Shown here: one piece after another, positions 29,481 to 37,297 of the stretch | Layout of the letters: the number at the start of each line of letters is the position of its first letter | How positions within the stretch are numbered: the first letter of the stretch is position 1 | NCBI GenBank assembly: GCA_023954815.1 | Contig: JAGSHB010000044.1 | Location: 1-37,297 of the forward strand | Direction of reading: 5' to 3' | From: Myxococcales bacterium | Lineage (GTDB): Bacteria > Myxococcota_A > UBA9042 | DNA: 37,297 bases | Program-made: the position numbers and the translations under genes | Notes under the pieces: model-generated | What the model was told of the DNA's origin: nothing | Database searches by the model: none | The model's input: the letters and a program-made list of their open reading frames with translations, nothing else

Positions 29481-30587
29481 ATGGAACCCTATCGTCTCAA
29501 GCGCGTCTACGCAGACTTGCGACGGGCGGCCGGTCGAGGCGACATGGCGACGGCACTGCAGGCGCTACAAGAAGCGATCGGCACGCAACTACCAAGCTCC
29601 ACCACATTGACGCCACTGTCACAATGCACGACGACGCTAAGCTACCGAGGTTTTAAGCCTGCCGAGTTGGCCATGCTCGCGGCCAACATCAAGCGTATTG
29701 TAAAATTCGAAGACGTACCGCCATCTCATGCGCGCGCTTTCATGGCGAGACACGCCGACCGCTATCAGATGACGCTTGGTCGCCCCTATTATAAGGACTA
29801 CCTCTTGATGAGCAGCCGCCCAGATCGTCTGCCAGGCGAATCCCAGCTCACCACGTTGTATGCGAGCCGCACCGGGGCGGGCCGTGCGCTGATGGAACTC
29901 GAACGCTCTGAACCCGAAGCGATCGAGGATGCAGGCGATCTCCTAGATTTTCCTTCCTGCTGCTCCCACACATTTAGCCACATCTTTCAGCGTAGTCGGC
30001 AAGATCAGGACACGGTCAACGACGATGCGGTCCGTGCCCTGCTCGAACAGACGATGATTTCCCCAGGAGACGCGGCACTCGATCCGTTGTCTGACCTAGA
30101 TCTATTGGCGTTTTACCCCTGCCAGCCCAACTGCAATGCGGCCCTGTCCATCGCGCGAACGACTCACACGGCGCTGCAGCGAAGCGCACCAAAGATCGCC
30201 GCACAAGCGTCTCGCGATCTGGGATCGCCCGTCCTTTTTTGGCGGATGCCATTTTTCATTCGCTTCGATGGCGACGTCATTCCAGCGGCGCAAACCCCAG
30301 GAAACGGCCCGGGGGTCGGCTATAAAAGCTCGTACTTACACGTGTTTCCTGATCCATCTGTCAGTCGAATCCAGCGCATGTTCGGCGGTTGCGTGTTGCC
30401 GCTGCTCGCACTGGGAAACCTCGTTCAGGTCGATGATGGCGACGTTGTCATCTACGCGGACAACGAGGAGGTCGCTCGTCTGCCTGGTGAAGGCAACTAC
30501 CCGCCATTACTGGGTCTGTGGGCAGGTTCTCAGGTATTTTCAGATAAGATTGATCCTCACGCTGCTGGCACGCTACCAACTGATTGA
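29481..30587 (+). CDS. Conserved-looking hypothetical protein with CC and CxxxC motifs
   Basis: Function unknown. It is a soluble 368-aa protein without a signal peptide. Two cysteine motifs stand out: FPSCCSHTF (C160, C161) and FYPCQPNCNAAL (C214, C218), about 50 residues apart. Paired motifs of the form (Y/F)PxCC plus HFPCxxxCxxS occur in uncharacterised bacterial and archaeal proteins (DUF483-like), suggesting a metal or iron-sulfur site; this link is from memory and is tentative. The last third (about 290-345) looks beta-rich. AGGAG lies 9 bases before the ATG. A hairpin follows immediately after the stop codon. It stands alone between a divergent and a downstream promoter. Confidence 0.75.
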   Translation: MEPYRLKRVYADLRRAAGRGDMATALQALQEAIGTQLPSSTTLTPLSQCTTTLSYRGFKPAELAMLAANIKRIVKFEDVPPSHARAFMARHADRYQMTLGRPYYKDYLLMSSRPDRLPGESQLTTLYASRTGAGRALMELERSEPEAIEDAGDLLDFPSCCSHTFSHIFQRSRQDQDTVNDDAVRALLEQTMISPGDAALDPLSDLDLLAFYPCQPNCNAALSIARTTHTALQRSAPKIAAQASRDLGSPVLFWRMPFFIRFDGDVIPAAQTPGNGPGVGYKSSYLHVFPDPSVSRIQRMFGGCVLPLLALGNLVQVDDGDVVIYADNEEVARLPGEGNYPPLLGLWAGSQVFSDKIDPHAAGTLPTD

Positions 30588-30852: not shown

Positions 30853-31416
30853 ATGCGACGCCAAATTTTCGCCATCGCCATCGGAGTCTGCAGCCTTGCG
30901 CTCGCAGCTGCCGTGGGCGCGCAGTCCAAAACTGCGACAGCGAACGCAGCAGAGATTGCTCAAATGGAAGAGCAAGGAAAGGCCGCCGTCAGCACGATGG
31001 AAAGCCGTCTCAAGGACGCGAACAAAGACTACGCCGAAGCAATGAAGGCGCAGGACGCGACCAAGATGAACTGCATCAGCGAGCCCCTGAAGATGCTCGA
31101 ATCGGTGGTGAAGCTGGGGCAGCAGTCGATGCTTGAGCTGCAGTCTGCCTCTGCTCGTATCAAGGGCAAAGAAGTAAAGACGGAGTACGTGAAGATCTCC
31201 ACCTTCCTTAGCAAGGCGGAGACGTACTACGGCGAACTCAAGGGTTGCGGCGGCTCTGCTGGCGGAACGATTGATGGTCGCCCGCTCATCGAGAAGAAGA
31301 TTTCCAATGATGTACCGAAGACAAATGCCACGGAGGGGACGAAGACGATGTCGACGCAGTCCGGGTATGTGTCATCTGTAAGTCCCTTTTTCGTTGACTC
31401 CAAGAGCGGGTCCTGA
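30853..31416 (+). CDS. Small secreted helical protein at the head of the export operon
   Basis: Not recognised. From the ATG at 30853 the product is 187 aa with a signal peptide (MRRQIFAIAIGVCSLALAAAVGA, cleavage likely after residue 23). The mature protein is Lys/Glu/Ala-rich and helical with coiled-coil character (about 35-130), plus two cysteines (in MNCISEP and KGCGGSAGG) that could pair. The tail is flexible (Ser, Thr, Gly). The frame is open back to an ATG at 30781, but that stretch is Arg/Pro-rich and unlike a leader; GGAG lies 10 bases before the chosen start. It is followed at 34 bases by the beta-barrel gene and shares the operon promoter, so it is probably a periplasmic partner of the export machine. 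Confidence 0.75.
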   Translation: MRRQIFAIAIGVCSLALAAAVGAQSKTATANAAEIAQMEEQGKAAVSTMESRLKDANKDYAEAMKAQDATKMNCISEPLKMLESVVKLGQQSMLELQSASARIKGKEVKTEYVKISTFLSKAETYYGELKGCGGSAGGTIDGRPLIEKKISNDVPKTNATEGTKTMSTQSGYVSSVSPFFVDSKSGS

Positions 31417-31450
31417 TCCAGCAGACCACGTTTGCGTAAGGTAAGGTAAC

Positions 31451-32800
31451 GTGCACGAGTTCATCGAAACAAAAGCGCTGGGTCGTTCGGCCCTCATCTC
31501 CGCGCTCGCAGTATTGTTCTTCATCCCGCTGACAGCGAGTGCTCAATCGAGCGGCTCGTCTGTTTCCGTGCCACGCCCTGCGGCTGGTGTGGGCGTGGAC
31601 ATGGGTTCGATCTCCAAGAATCGAGGCCTACGAAGCGGCGACTTTGAGTTGCTGCCGAGTGTGGGCGTTGACGGTCACTACGACACCAACGTCTTTAACG
31701 GCAACGAGGACGAAAACAACGTTCCCCAGGCAGCGGCATCGGTGCGTATCGCCCCGCGTTTGTCGCTGAACAATGGAACCAAGTCCGAGGTGCAGTTCCG
31801 GTTCGGCGCCGCTGGCGACATTCGCTTGTACATGAGCGACAAAGAGAACATCAGCAACCTCAATAACTTCGGCGGAAAGGCTGATTTGAACGTCGACTTT
31901 GCTGCGCGGCGCGCGATCTCGTTCGCAGTGTTCAACAACTTCTCCCGTTCCCTGCGCCCCAATAACTGGGAGACCACCGAGACACTCAACCGGATCAACA
32001 ATCAGGTTGGTGCGCGCGTGTCCTTCCATCCAGGAGAGACCCCCGAGCGTCGTCCGCTAGAGATCTCGCTTCAGGGCGCCTATGTCATCGACAACTTCGA
32101 AGACTTTGACTTCGGAAACTCGACGACCGTTCGCTCGCGCTTGACCGGTAGCTGGCGGTTCCTGCCACGCACTGCGGCGATCCTCGACGCTGGCTGGGAC
32201 TTCCGGAAGTACCACGTCGACAATCCTGCCTTGGCGGTTTTCACCTCTGACTCGTCACCTTGGCGCGTACAGGGTGGTCTCGCCGGAGCGCTGACTTCGC
32301 GGATCACATTCCGGCTGACCGCTGGCTGGGGCATGTCGATGCATGAGAAGGGCGAGTCCTTCAACAGCATGCTCGGCAACATCTCCCTGGGCTACGCACC
32401 GTCGGCGACCACGTTCCTGTCAGTCGGCTACGCGCGTGACTTCCGTCAGTCCTACTACGGCAACTTCATCGACACGAACCGCGGCACCGTTTCTCTGCAG
32501 CAGCGGTTCGGTCGCCTGATGGAAGTGACGGCGTGGTTCAACTTCACCTACGGCATGTATGGCGCTTTCAGCGAAATTCCGGCCAATACGAGTGTGACCC
32601 AGTTAAATCGCAAGGACTACATGCTGGACGGTGGTCTGCGTGCGCTGATCGAAGTATCGCGGCTGATTGGCGTGCAGGTCGGGTACACGTTGCGCGGCGT
32701 GATCACCAACTTCAAGATCACGTCGGCTGACGACCGCGTACTCGATGTCGGCGCCTTCATGGCGCACGAAATCTACGCAGGCCTGTCGATCCGCTACTGA
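31451..32800 (+). CDS. Outer-membrane beta-barrel protein of the polysaccharide export operon
   Basis: It has a signal peptide (cleavage likely after ASA at residue 31) and then a 418-residue chain of alternating polar/hydrophobic strands rich in Tyr, Phe and Gly, ending in SIRY, an aromatic terminus typical of Bam-inserted barrels. Repeating strand pairs such as TAAILDAGWDFRKYHV and TTFLSVGYARDF suggest about 16-18 strands. It precedes the OPX gene by 23 bases. In Myxococcus, barrel porins encoded beside short OPX proteins are proposed to complete the outer-membrane pore for the polymer; this protein is a good candidate for that role. It starts with GTG at 31451 after AAGG. The family resembles BBP2-type barrels, by eye only. 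Confidence 0.82.
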   Translation: MHEFIETKALGRSALISALAVLFFIPLTASAQSSGSSVSVPRPAAGVGVDMGSISKNRGLRSGDFELLPSVGVDGHYDTNVFNGNEDENNVPQAAASVRIAPRLSLNNGTKSEVQFRFGAAGDIRLYMSDKENISNLNNFGGKADLNVDFAARRAISFAVFNNFSRSLRPNNWETTETLNRINNQVGARVSFHPGETPERRPLEISLQGAYVIDNFEDFDFGNSTTVRSRLTGSWRFLPRTAAILDAGWDFRKYHVDNPALAVFTSDSSPWRVQGGLAGALTSRITFRLTAGWGMSMHEKGESFNSMLGNISLGYAPSATTFLSVGYARDFRQSYYGNFIDTNRGTVSLQQRFGRLMEVTAWFNFTYGMYGAFSEIPANTSVTQLNRKDYMLDGGLRALIEVSRLIGVQVGYTLRGVITNFKITSADDRVLDVGAFMAHEIYAGLSIRY

Positions 32801-32823
32801 GCGGCCCGACAAGACGCACCCGC

Positions 32824-33420
32824 ATGACGATACCCATGACGCGGCTGGCATGTTTGTGCTTGGCGACGATGCTGCTCGGCTGCTCGACCGCAGCGAACGG
32901 TAACTATCAAAATATCGCGCGAGACGTGCGTGGTGCGATGCAGGCCAGCACGCTGGGGCCAGGAGACGTCATCAACGTCCGGGTGTACCTGCACGAAGAT
33001 CTGAAGGGAGAATACGAAGTCTCCCCCGTTGGCCAGATCAACTTCCCTCTCATCGGTCTCATTACAATCGAGGGCCTGACTGCGGCGCAGGTGAGCAGTT
33101 TGGTCCGAGGCAAGCTCGCGAAGGGTTTTTTGCGGGACCCCCACGTGATCGTGACGGTCAGTCACTTCAACTCGAAGAAGGTTTTCGTACTCGGTCAGGT
33201 CAAGAAGTCCGGCCGCTTTCGGTACGTGGACAACATGACGGTCGTTGAGGCCATCACCCTCGCCGGCGGCTTCGGATCCATGGCTGAGAAGAACTACGTC
33301 ATCATCACGCGCGGCACGCGCCGCATTCCCGTGCCGGTCGAGAAGATCATGCAGGGACTCGCGCCCAATTTTGGTATCCGTCCGGGAGATTTGGTGTACG
33401 TTCCGCAGCGCGTCCTGTAG
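32824..33420 (+). CDS. Polysaccharide export lipoprotein (short OPX/Wza class)
   Basis: Lipoprotein with lipobox MLLGC (Cys20). The Poly_export domain covers about 41-125 (LGPGDVINVRVYLHEDLKGEYEV, INFPLIGLITIEGLTAAQV). An SLBB domain follows at about 130-175 (KVFVLGQVKKSGRFRYVDNMTVVEAI). The end GIRPGDLVYVPQRVL closes the protein. At 198 aa it lacks the C-terminal amphipathic helix by which E. coli Wza (379 aa) spans the outer membrane, so it likely needs the neighbouring beta-barrel. An in-frame ATG at 32836 is an alternative start. Confidence 0.93.
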   Translation: MTIPMTRLACLCLATMLLGCSTAANGNYQNIARDVRGAMQASTLGPGDVINVRVYLHEDLKGEYEVSPVGQINFPLIGLITIEGLTAAQVSSLVRGKLAKGFLRDPHVIVTVSHFNSKKVFVLGQVKKSGRFRYVDNMTVVEAITLAGGFGSMAEKNYVIITRGTRRIPVPVEKIMQGLAPNFGIRPGDLVYVPQRVL

Positions 33421-33474
33421 GCGCAGCCGAAAAAATTCGATCCTCAGCCCTAAGCAACGACACTAAGCTCCGAC

Positions 33475-35718
33475 ATGCAAGCGACCAAGCCCGACCCAGT
33501 ATCATTGGACGAACAGCTCACCGCGAGCGAGATGCTATCGCGTGGTCGTGAGGTGCTGACCAAGCGATTTTGGTGGTTTGCAGTGGCTTTCGTGGCGGTG
33601 ACAGCTGCGACCTATGTGGTCACCAAGCATCAGCAGCGCATCTACAAGGCAACTGGGTCGATGGTGATTGAGCGGCGACCTCCCAAAGTCCTCAATGGGG
33701 TCAGCGAAGTCGTCAGCCTGGGCGCCCAAGGTTACTGGGGTAGCAAGCAGTACTACGAAGCCCAGCGTCAGATTCTGAAATCCCGAGAACTGGCGGCCCT
33801 GGTCATCAATCGCCACGGGCTCGCGGCCGATCCGCACCTCTTTGGCCTCGATCGACCGGGACTGGAGCTAACCGAGGCGCAAAAGCGCGACATCATGGCC
33901 AACAGCGACGCGATTGCGGCCGTGGCGAGCCGCGTGAGCGTCGATCTCGGCGAATCCTCGATGATTGCCCGTGTATCCATTGAGGACTCAGATCCAGCTT
34001 ACGCTCAACAGCTGGTCAACTGGATCCTCCGTGCGTACCGCGACCGCAACCTGAATACGAAGCGGCGCGCGACGCGAGAGGCGTACAAGGACCTCAAGAC
34101 GATCGTGAAGGACATGGGCAGCAAGAAGCAGGCATCTGAAAACGCACTGCTGGCATTTGAGACCCGCTACGATCTGTCCACCAACCACCGCCAGGCCATC
34201 AAGGACGACATTCTGACGTTGGCACGCAATCTACGTTCAGCGGAACGGCAGCGGCTCATCGCAAGTCAGCACGTCCGCACCATGCGGCGCTACCAAAAGG
34301 GTACCGACCTGTTTTCGGTCGGCGCCAAAGCGCTCGTCGAGGACTCGCTCACCCAGCTGCTCAAGCAACGCTACCTGACGCTGTCGATTCAAAAACGCGA
34401 ACTGGAGGCGGTCTACCTAGACAAGCACCCCAAGGTTCGGACAATCGAGAGTCAGCTCGTTCACTTGCGAAAGATCGCGAAGAAACACCTGCGCGCTGCC
34501 TTGGTGGGAGCCAAGCGCTCACTGGGTGACGCGATGGAGACGGAGAAGGTGGTCCGCCAAAAGCTGTCGAAGGTCTACAAAGAGGACGCAGCGCTCAGAA
34601 AGGCGGAGCTGAAGTACGAGCAACTCAAGGCCAAGCGCAATGAGGACCGGGGATTTTACGAACTCGTCGCCAAACGTCTCGCTGAGACAGACCTCACGGG
34701 CCAAGTCGAGGTCAATAACGTCAGTATTTTGGATGAAGCGGTGCTGCCGCGCGTGCCAATTCGCCCCAAGAAGCGGCTGAACTACGCGCTCGGCATCCTG
34801 CTAGGTCTCCTCGTTGGTCTAGGGGCGGCCCTGTCTGCCGAGCTGCTCGACAATACGGTGAAGGACCGACTGCAAATCGAGCAGCGTCTCGGGCTCGCCT
34901 ACCTTGGAGCGATTCCCACCTACCAGCTCGGCGACGTGGACGACGAGACTGAAATTCCAGTGGAAAGCGTCGATCTTTATGCACACTATCGCCCGAATTC
35001 CCGGGTCGCTGAGGCGTCGCGCTCCATTCGGACGAACCTGCTGTTCATGCGCAGCGAAAAGCCCCTGCGTTCGATGGTCATCACCAGCGCGCATCCCCGC
35101 GAGGGCAAGACGTCGACGTCGACCACGATCGCTATCGCGCTGGCCAACTCCAGCGGCTCCTGCGTGTTGGTCGATACGGATCTTCGCAAGCCACGGCTGC
35201 ACAAAGTCTTTGGGCTGAGCGCTGAACATGGCGTCACGAACTTCATCCTGAACCCCAACGCCGATGTCTCGACGCTGACGCAGCAAACAGAGGTTCCCGG
35301 CCTACATCTGTTGGCGAGTGGACCGCTACCACCAGACTCTTCGCGTATTTTGCACAACGAGCGCTTCATGTCGCTCGTGGAAGAGCTGAAGAAGAAGTTC
35401 GAAGTGGTGATCTTCGACTCGCCGCCGGTTGAAATTGTCAGTGACGCGCTGGTGCTCTCGAGGCTGACCGACGGTGTCGTCGTTGTGGCACACGCAAAGA
35501 CGACGCGGATGACTGCCCTAACCTCGACCGTGCGCGCGCTGCGCAACGTCAACGCAACGGTGTTGGGAATGGTGCTGTCTCGCACCCAAGAGACCGGAAC
35601 GGGCTACGGCTACTACTACGGACATGGCTATCGCGGCGGGCGGCGTTCCTACCAATATCGGTACGGCACCGACGGGCCGGACACGGATGACGATTCGCCC
35701 GTGTTGAGTGAAAGCTAG
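33475..35718 (+). CDS. Wzc-like polysaccharide co-polymerase with tyrosine-kinase domain (PCP-2a, BY-kinase)
   Basis: It controls chain length and export in the inner membrane. Transmembrane segments flank a large periplasmic coiled-coil domain: TM1 at about 32-50 and TM2 at about 433-455, with a Wzz-type N-terminus and a GNVR-like segment (about 395-430). The cytoplasmic kinase has Walker A HPREGKTS with K545, Walker A' VLVDTDLRKPR (D567, D569) and Walker B VIFDS with D648. The C-terminal tail holds a tyrosine cluster of eight Tyr in residues 711-730 (Y711, 713-715, 719, 726, 728, 730), the usual autophosphorylation site. Length of 747 aa is typical of fused PCP-2a. It follows the OPX gene by 54 bases. 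Confidence 0.95.
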   Translation: MQATKPDPVSLDEQLTASEMLSRGREVLTKRFWWFAVAFVAVTAATYVVTKHQQRIYKATGSMVIERRPPKVLNGVSEVVSLGAQGYWGSKQYYEAQRQILKSRELAALVINRHGLAADPHLFGLDRPGLELTEAQKRDIMANSDAIAAVASRVSVDLGESSMIARVSIEDSDPAYAQQLVNWILRAYRDRNLNTKRRATREAYKDLKTIVKDMGSKKQASENALLAFETRYDLSTNHRQAIKDDILTLARNLRSAERQRLIASQHVRTMRRYQKGTDLFSVGAKALVEDSLTQLLKQRYLTLSIQKRELEAVYLDKHPKVRTIESQLVHLRKIAKKHLRAALVGAKRSLGDAMETEKVVRQKLSKVYKEDAALRKAELKYEQLKAKRNEDRGFYELVAKRLAETDLTGQVEVNNVSILDEAVLPRVPIRPKKRLNYALGILLGLLVGLGAALSAELLDNTVKDRLQIEQRLGLAYLGAIPTYQLGDVDDETEIPVESVDLYAHYRPNSRVAEASRSIRTNLLFMRSEKPLRSMVITSAHPREGKTSTSTTIAIALANSSGSCVLVDTDLRKPRLHKVFGLSAEHGVTNFILNPNADVSTLTQQTEVPGLHLLASGPLPPDSSRILHNERFMSLVEELKKKFEVVIFDSPPVEIVSDALVLSRLTDGVVVVAHAKTTRMTALTSTVRALRNVNATVLGMVLSRTQETGTGYGYYYGHGYRGGRRSYQYRYGTDGPDTDDDSPVLSES

Positions 35719-35833: not shown

Positions 35834-37297
35834 ATGGACAAGGTCATTGGTATCGATCTAGGCACTACAAATTCGTGCGTGGTGGTCTACGAAGGTGACG
35901 CTCCGATCGTGATCCCCAACGGTGAAGGTTCCCGTACAACTTCATCCGTTGTGGCATTTACGCAGGACGGACAGCGGCTCGTCGGCGGCATCGCTAAACG
36001 CCAAGCGATCACCAACCCGAAGCGCACAGTTCACGCGACGAAGCGGATGATGGGGCGCAAGTTCCTTTCCGAAGAGATGCAGCGGATCAAAGAGACCGCG
36101 CCTTTCGACGTTTCAGAAGACAACAACGGCGACGCGACTGTGCGCGTGGGTACGAAGTCATACACTCCCCAGGAGATCGGCGCCTTCATCCTGCAAGATC
36201 TCAAGCGCTCAGCGGAAGAATACCTGGAAGATCGTGTCGTCGATGCGGTGGTGACTGTTCCTGCCTACTTCGATGATGCCCAGCGTCAGGCGACACGCGA
36301 CGCGGGCCGTATCGCTGGACTCAATGTTCTTCGTATCATCAACGAGCCCACCGCTGCCGCTCTTGCCTATGGAATTACAGCCGAATCTCGCGGCACCATC
36401 GCTGTGTATGACCTCGGTGGTGGTACCTTCGATATTTCGATCCTTGAGATTTCTGACGGCGTGTTCCAGGTCCGCGCGACCCACGGCGATACCTTCCTCG
36501 GCGGTGAGGATATCGACGCCCGTATCGTGGTCGATTTGGTTGATAACTTCGCCCAAGAGACCGGCCTGGATCTGCGTGACGACGCTGTCGCGATGCAGCG
36601 TCTGAAGGATGCAGCCGAGCGCGCCAAGATCGAGCTGTCGACCCTAGAAGAAGCGGAGATCTCTCTGCCATTTCTGACGTCGGACGACAGCGGCCCGAAG
36701 CACCTTCAGCGCACATTGACGCGGCCCGAGCTCGAGCTGATCTGCAAAGACCTCGTCGACCAGACCCTGCGCCACTGTGAGCAGGCCCTCGACGACGCCG
36801 GCCTCAAGACCTCCGATATCGCGGATGTGATCTTGGTCGGCGGTATGACGAAGATTCCCATGGTCCAACGGGCTGTGTCCGAACTCTTTGGCCGTCAGCC
36901 GAACCGCACGGTCAACCCAGACGAAGCCGTCGCTGTAGGTGCCGCCTACCAGGGCGCCATTTTGTCGGGTGACGTAGGCGACGTGGTGCTGCTCGATGTG
37001 ACGCCGCTGTCGCTGGGTATTGAGACCGCCGGCGGCGTCTTTACTCGGCTGATTCCGCGGAACACGACCGTTCCGGCCAGCGTGACCGAGGTGTTCACGA
37101 CAGCGGAGGATTACCAGCCGTTGGTCAACATCCATGTGCTGCAGGGCGAGCGTCCAATCGCAGCCGACAACACCAGCTTGGCTCGGTTTGAGCTCGTCGG
37201 TATTCCGCCCGCACTGCGCGGTGTTCCGAAGATCGAGGTGACGTTCAGCATCGACGCCAACGGCATCTTGTCTGTGCAGGCCAAAGATCTGGGTACC
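35834..37297 (+). CDS. dnaK: Chaperone DnaK, 3' end beyond the window
   Basis: An Hsp70 chaperone. The 488 codons in the window cover the ATPase domain and part of the substrate-binding domain: [11 protein letters not shown] at 6-16, [10 protein letters not shown] (about 194), [11 protein letters not shown] (about 332), the interdomain linker [15 protein letters not shown], then the beta-sandwich domain with QGERP. Compared with E. coli DnaK some stretches differ ([31 protein letters not shown]). HscA is less likely because of that block and the linker. No grpE or dnaJ is seen on this side, so it may be a stand-alone or second dnaK. AAGGTGGG lies upstream; a CTTGA element at 35766-35770 hints at a heat-shock promoter but the -10 is unclear. 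Confidence 0.95.

Follow-up and report, generated by a model that had tools for sequence, protein, structure and literature searches.

Results

A four-gene export operon

The window analysed here, by which we mean the whole stretch of 37,297 nucleotides from a Myxococcales bacterium, carries an operon that, in our reading (probability about 65%), provides the translocon and the co-polymerase of a single Wzx/Wzy pathway assembled elsewhere, with the secreted helper encoded by its first gene acting as a third periplasmic component together with the outer-membrane barrel. The type of export machine is already known; the helper is an undescribed addition to it.

Table 1. Features of the export operon and its neighbours (positions within the window)
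Feature	Position	Strand	Details
Helper	30853..31416	+	ORF, 187 aa; three-helix bundle predicted at residues 32-132, after a signal peptide and before a disordered tail at the C-terminus
Helper Cys74 codon to Cys132 codon	31072..31248	+	Conserved cysteine pair; alignments A2 and A4
Helper C-terminal motif S-V-S-P-F-F, residues 175-180	31375..31392	+	Alignment A2; phylum-wide ending
Outer-membrane beta-barrel, Wzp/EpsX-like	31451..32800	+	GTG start, 449 aa; PF10082, AlphaFold, Foldseek
OPX lipoprotein, D1D2 type, Poly_export and SLBB	32824..33420	+	198 aa; PF02563, SLBB, 9n9a_A match
OPX lipobox L-L-G-C, residues 17-20	32872..32883	+	Translation
Wzc-like PCP with fused BY-kinase domain	33475..35718	+	747 aa; GNVR, Wzz, TIGR01007, motifs
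Upstream gene, Cys-rich motifs	29481..30587	+	368 aa; weak DUF483 (Pfam E=0.016); homologs in relatives
DnaK-family gene	35834..37297	+	Cut off by the window's end; conserved downstream of the operon

An earlier note, made from the sequence alone, had described a set of secreted helper, beta-barrel, short OPX and Wzc-like kinase, and reading frames, domains, folds and synteny all confirm it. The ORF check found the four genes on the forward strand where that note had placed them, separated by gaps of 34 bp (helper/barrel), 23 bp (barrel/OPX) and 54 bp (OPX/Wzc-like gene), each with coding-like GC by codon position. A further 17 genomes from the order keep the arrangement helper-barrel-OPX-Wzc, which rules out chance. 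No profile match to a glycosyltransferase, flippase or polymerase was found in the window, in agreement with the note's description of the operon, or in the export loci of the relatives; MurG, MraY and FtsW encoded in the window are members of the dcw cluster.

The surroundings of the operon are conserved as well. Homologs of the 368-aa upstream gene precede the export set in seven relatives and in loci L177-L191, that is, in much of the order, where this gene fills the position that GltG occupies in other lineages. The DnaK gene lies downstream of the export set throughout the order as well as in part of the class (including L233-L251). One database entry, CAMDBH010000008.1 (L179), is titled Klebsiella pneumoniae and carries the myxobacterial operon; its title is apparently wrong.

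A probable composite translocon with a fused kinase co-polymerase

The OPX, a lipoprotein by its lipobox, matches PF02563 (E=1.6e-20) and SLBB in Pfam, and with its 198 residues it falls among short OPX proteins, defined here as those of at most 280 aa with Poly_export and SLBB domains. Its best solved relative is 9n9a_A, a polysaccharide export protein of 186 aa (E=7.9e-35). Since the alignment extends to residue 196 of 198, the two remaining residues leave no room for a Wza-type helix, whose absence the earlier note had proposed. That note had also assigned the pore to the barrel encoded just before the OPX. The assignment is well supported: besides a Pfam match to PF10082 (BBP2_2, E=1.2e-5), the barrel has an AlphaFold model with 18 long strands (mean pLDDT 82.5), and its top Foldseek match among solved structures is the alginate exporter AlgE, as with EpsX of the EpsX/EpsY pair.

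In the Wzc-like protein, Pfam detects GNVR, Wzz and a ParA-like kinase domain; among NCBIfam models, TIGR01007 scores above its cut-off and TIGR01005 (E=4e-49) below. Walker A (GKTS), A' (DTDLRKP) and B (VIFDSPP) motifs and a tyrosine-rich tail can be read from its sequence, so that it combines the Wzz/GNVR region, the three Walker motifs and the tail by which we recognise a BY-kinase.

OPX and barrel together have the make-up of a composite OPX/barrel translocon of the EpsX/EpsY and Wzp type, with an added partner. EpsX/EpsY of Myxococcus xanthus is such a translocon, EpsX being likened to the AlgE fold (Schwabe et al. 2022, PMC9601211), and Wzp pairs with a class 3 OPX (Saidi et al. 2022, PMC9603273). 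As far as the accessible text of these two papers goes, the window shares with both systems a short D1D2 OPX devoid of an outer-membrane helix, an adjoining AlgE-like barrel of 18 strands and a PCP that completes the path through the envelope. It differs from them in that its export genes lie apart from the biosynthesis genes and in the secreted helical protein encoded before the barrel, of which we found no mention in the same text. PCP and BY-kinase form one polypeptide in the window, whereas they are split in the Exo pathway of M. xanthus as described there. Group 1 capsule export by Wza/Wzc of E. coli likewise joins an OPX to a BY-kinase co-polymerase, and our OPX matches Wza chains; in contrast to Wza, however, it has no C-terminal helix, and a separate barrel would be the pore.

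The helper family

The helper has no relative in Pfam, NCBIfam or the PDB, and a fold search returned only chance helical bundles (best E=0.16). AlphaFold predicts its bundle with pLDDT above 90 and a disordered tail. Of 379 Myxococcota genomes, 173 gave a profile match to the family, nearly always as a single copy; in draft genomes some loci are incomplete. Within the order, 19 of 22 genomes have a homolog. Among the three without one, G002 has an OPX that lies where a contig ends, and the other two genomes are 58-67% complete.

Outside the order we read 60 helper loci, a non-random sample picked mostly from the stronger helper matches. The barrel gene lies directly 3' of the helper in 59 of them, and an OPX gene is found within 2.5 kb in 44 of the 56 loci with enough room. 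When distant loci were instead chosen by their barrel, the helper was present in 11 of 13, one exception being a barrel that starts at a contig edge. Related operons devoid of the helper gene, which the earlier note would have counted against its view, were looked for; what we see is a helper adjoining its barrel phylum-wide.

Two cysteines are conserved, and in nearly all loci of the phylum they are spaced by 58 residues. Because predicted helices 2 and 3 place them at the same end, a disulfide Cys74-Cys132 is likely. In the tail, S175, S177 and F179 are invariant in alignment A2, and an S/T-P-F/Y motif is common across the phylum. The C-termini of the helpers in L274, L279 and L286 carry C-A-S-C in its place.

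The own genome contains two helper paralogs outside the operon (L031:10116-10646 and L032:10515-11210), one of them directly after an NDP-sugar epimerase gene. Elsewhere, GltG-helper-barrel arrangements with no adjacent OPX occur in L265, L269, L287 and L289, where neighbouring genes resemble FtsK, LolA and RimO. Paralogs away from the operon and helper-barrel pairs lacking OPX indicate that the helper has its closer tie with the barrel and a looser one with the OPX. Identity with GltF was considered and is disfavoured by size or position, in a comparison by description only: GltF has 89 aa and is encoded upstream of GltG (PMC3169522). GltH, with 209 aa (PMC3169522), is a possible counterpart.

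From this conservation of sequence and position, the helper appears to be a part of the exporter that has been missed so far. It would most likely be a structural adaptor between barrel and OPX; the earlier note had suggested a periplasmic adaptor. The main rival explanation, which we hold to be rather doubtful, makes it a periplasmic chaperone or assembly factor dedicated to the barrel, which it would bring to BAM, with no place of its own in the finished translocon. Such a function would suit a small, secreted, helical protein whose tail ends near aromatic residues and whose gene immediately precedes that of the barrel, sometimes with no OPX nearby. In the helper of the window, however, the chain continues beyond the aromatic motif (SPFFVDSKSGS), and its gene's place between GltG and barrel, which is conserved, suggests that the helper acts in the working machine. 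Moreover, it is uncommon for a chaperone to serve one single barrel.

Probable source of the exported polymer

The genome from which the window comes is a draft of 6.44 Mb in 314 contigs, 97% complete. It contains one PF02563 OPX and one Wzz, both in the export operon, one PF02397 PGT (contig C296) and two Polysacc_synt proteins. On contig C204, GT4, Wzx and Wzy genes and a further GT4 gene are arranged on one strand, and export genes are absent from the cluster. All parts of a Wzx/Wzy pathway are therefore present in this genome: the PGT on C296, Wzx, Wzy and two GT4 proteins on C204, and the PCP in the operon.

The same split is repeated in the order. A single OPX was found in 19 of the 21 genomes searched (two in one genome, none in another that is 67% complete) and a single Wzz in 20 of 21, every listed Wzz being inside the export operon. 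A Wzx homolog stands beside Wzy and a glycosyltransferase, in most genera beside the PGT too, and these clusters gave no match to helper, barrel, OPX or Wzc. The best-assembled relative (G003) carries its export and Wzx/Wzy loci on separate contigs of about 240 kb; G011, also well assembled, combines the export set with a PGT and lacks a Wzx of the C204 type. The PGT itself varies. In the own genus (L034:2106-3566, G000:C296), G008 and G011 it is a WbaP-like protein of about 500 aa encoded away from the Wzx/Wzy cluster; in other genera of the order, a PGT of about 270 aa is encoded within that cluster and has apparently been displaced in the former group.

The sole OPX, Wzz and PGT, together with the split recurring throughout the order, lead by elimination to the assignment of the export set, most likely, to the unlinked Wzx-Wzy-GT cluster. 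The earlier note had supposed that the set serves a polymer made elsewhere, proposed a search for Wzx/Wzy/glycosyltransferase loci lacking export genes, and named a complete biosynthesis cluster with its own export set as the contrary finding. Loci of the former kind exist on C204 and across the order, with a PGT, Wzx, Wzy and GT set free of OPX and co-polymerase in the same genome; no cluster of the latter kind was found, the only OPX and Wzz of the genome being those of the operon.

It could be argued that a Wzx/Wzy cluster with no export genes makes LPS O-antigen, further Wzy_C-like proteins of the genome being possible O-antigen ligases, and that the export set serves another polymer, for example one from an ABC-transporter or synthase pathway. 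We regard this as unlikely, since the export operon holds the only Wzz of the genome, which has a single PF02397 PGT, since a Wzc with a BY-kinase is typical of Wzx/Wzy export, and since NDP-sugar, glycosyltransferase or PGT genes adjoin the export set in some other families. Membership in the XrtA/PEP-CTERM exopolysaccharide system was rejected on NCBIfam scores and is very improbable. Among NCBIfam models the OPX matches TIGR03027 (XrtA/PEP-CTERM export protein) best (E=1e-27), but with 96.9 bits it stays far from the cut-off of 180. Co-polymerase and kinase form one protein instead of two and score below the cut-offs of TIGR03007 and TIGR03018, and the operon includes no exosortase.

Association with Agl/Glt-type motor genes

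Outside the order of the window, the common arrangement is TolQ-TolR-TolR-GltG-helper-barrel-OPX(-Wzc). A GltG-like gene is directly upstream of the helper in 42 of the 54 loci with enough contig, TolQ lies within 5.5 kb in 23 of 47, and GltE-like TPR proteins are encoded further upstream of this block in the same lineages. The GltG-like protein scores above the cut-off of NF033768, a model of the AgmX/PglI C-terminal domain; the GltG equivalog NF033760 (E=1e-37) matches its second half only, below cut-off, leaving the FHA part unmatched. The TPR protein likewise remains below the cut-off of the GltE model (E=4e-31).

These relatives thus resemble the Agl/Glt/Nfs core (PMC3169522, PMC3858216) in having TolQ-TolR-TolR, a GltG-like protein with a TonB-like C-terminus and a GltE-like TPR protein encoded before helper-barrel-OPX. 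In the window no motor block is adjacent: TolQ-TolR-TolR and GltG are absent beside the set both there and in 16 relatives from the order, whose flanks were read over up to 10 kb. GltG-like genes are present in every genome of the order searched, away from the export set. Proteins with the GltG-like TonB tail give 7-18 matches per genome in the order and are often encoded as tandem pairs (e.g. G000:C81:52807-56415).

Discussion

From families, folds and gene order, the following path can be proposed. PGT, Wzx, Wzy and glycosyltransferases encoded elsewhere on the chromosome would make the polymer at the inner membrane. The Wzc-like BY-kinase co-polymerase would set chain length and pass the polymer across the periplasm into a ring that short D1D2 OPX lipoproteins form in the periplasm, from which it would leave the cell through the 18-stranded barrel; these steps are suggested by what is known of the respective families. 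With less certainty, the helper, a predicted three-helix bundle that is probably clamped by its disulfide and ends in a flexible tail with the conserved aromatic motif, would bind the barrel, probably on its periplasmic side, and would join it to the OPX or, where present, to GltG.

Outside gliding species, the function of the motor core genes is unknown (Luciano et al. 2011, PMC3169522). Agl-Glt and Nfs have been seen as machines that move polymers after export and not as parts of the exporter (Wartel et al. 2013, PMC3858216). A search of the main text of open papers found no link of Agl/Glt motors to OPX genes. The gene order described above suggests a closer relation between Agl/Glt and the exporter than the view in PMC3858216. 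Because helper-barrel-OPX follows GltG, often together with TolQ-TolR-TolR, in most other Myxococcota examined, a proton-driven motor of the Agl/Glt type was probably coupled to the ancestral helper-barrel-OPX machine, and the order of the window would have retained the exporter with no motor adjacent to it. More tentatively, an Agl/Glt-type motor, consisting of TolQ-TolR-TolR and the TonB-like arm of GltG, might physically engage the helper-barrel-OPX translocon across Myxococcota to power, gate or pull the passage of polysaccharide across the outer membrane, with the helper as the coupling piece. If this is true, the motors of gliding and of spore-coat formation are relatives of the motor of a polysaccharide exporter.

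When composite OPX/barrel exporters were first reported in 2022, their outer portion comprised two parts. Across Myxococcota, a third gene keeps its place directly before that of the barrel and points to a missing component of the exporter. From the gene order shared with an Agl/Glt-type motor comes a concrete hypothesis on what the Agl/Glt core does and on how polymer export and surface transport connect, and it can be tested in cultured myxobacteria.
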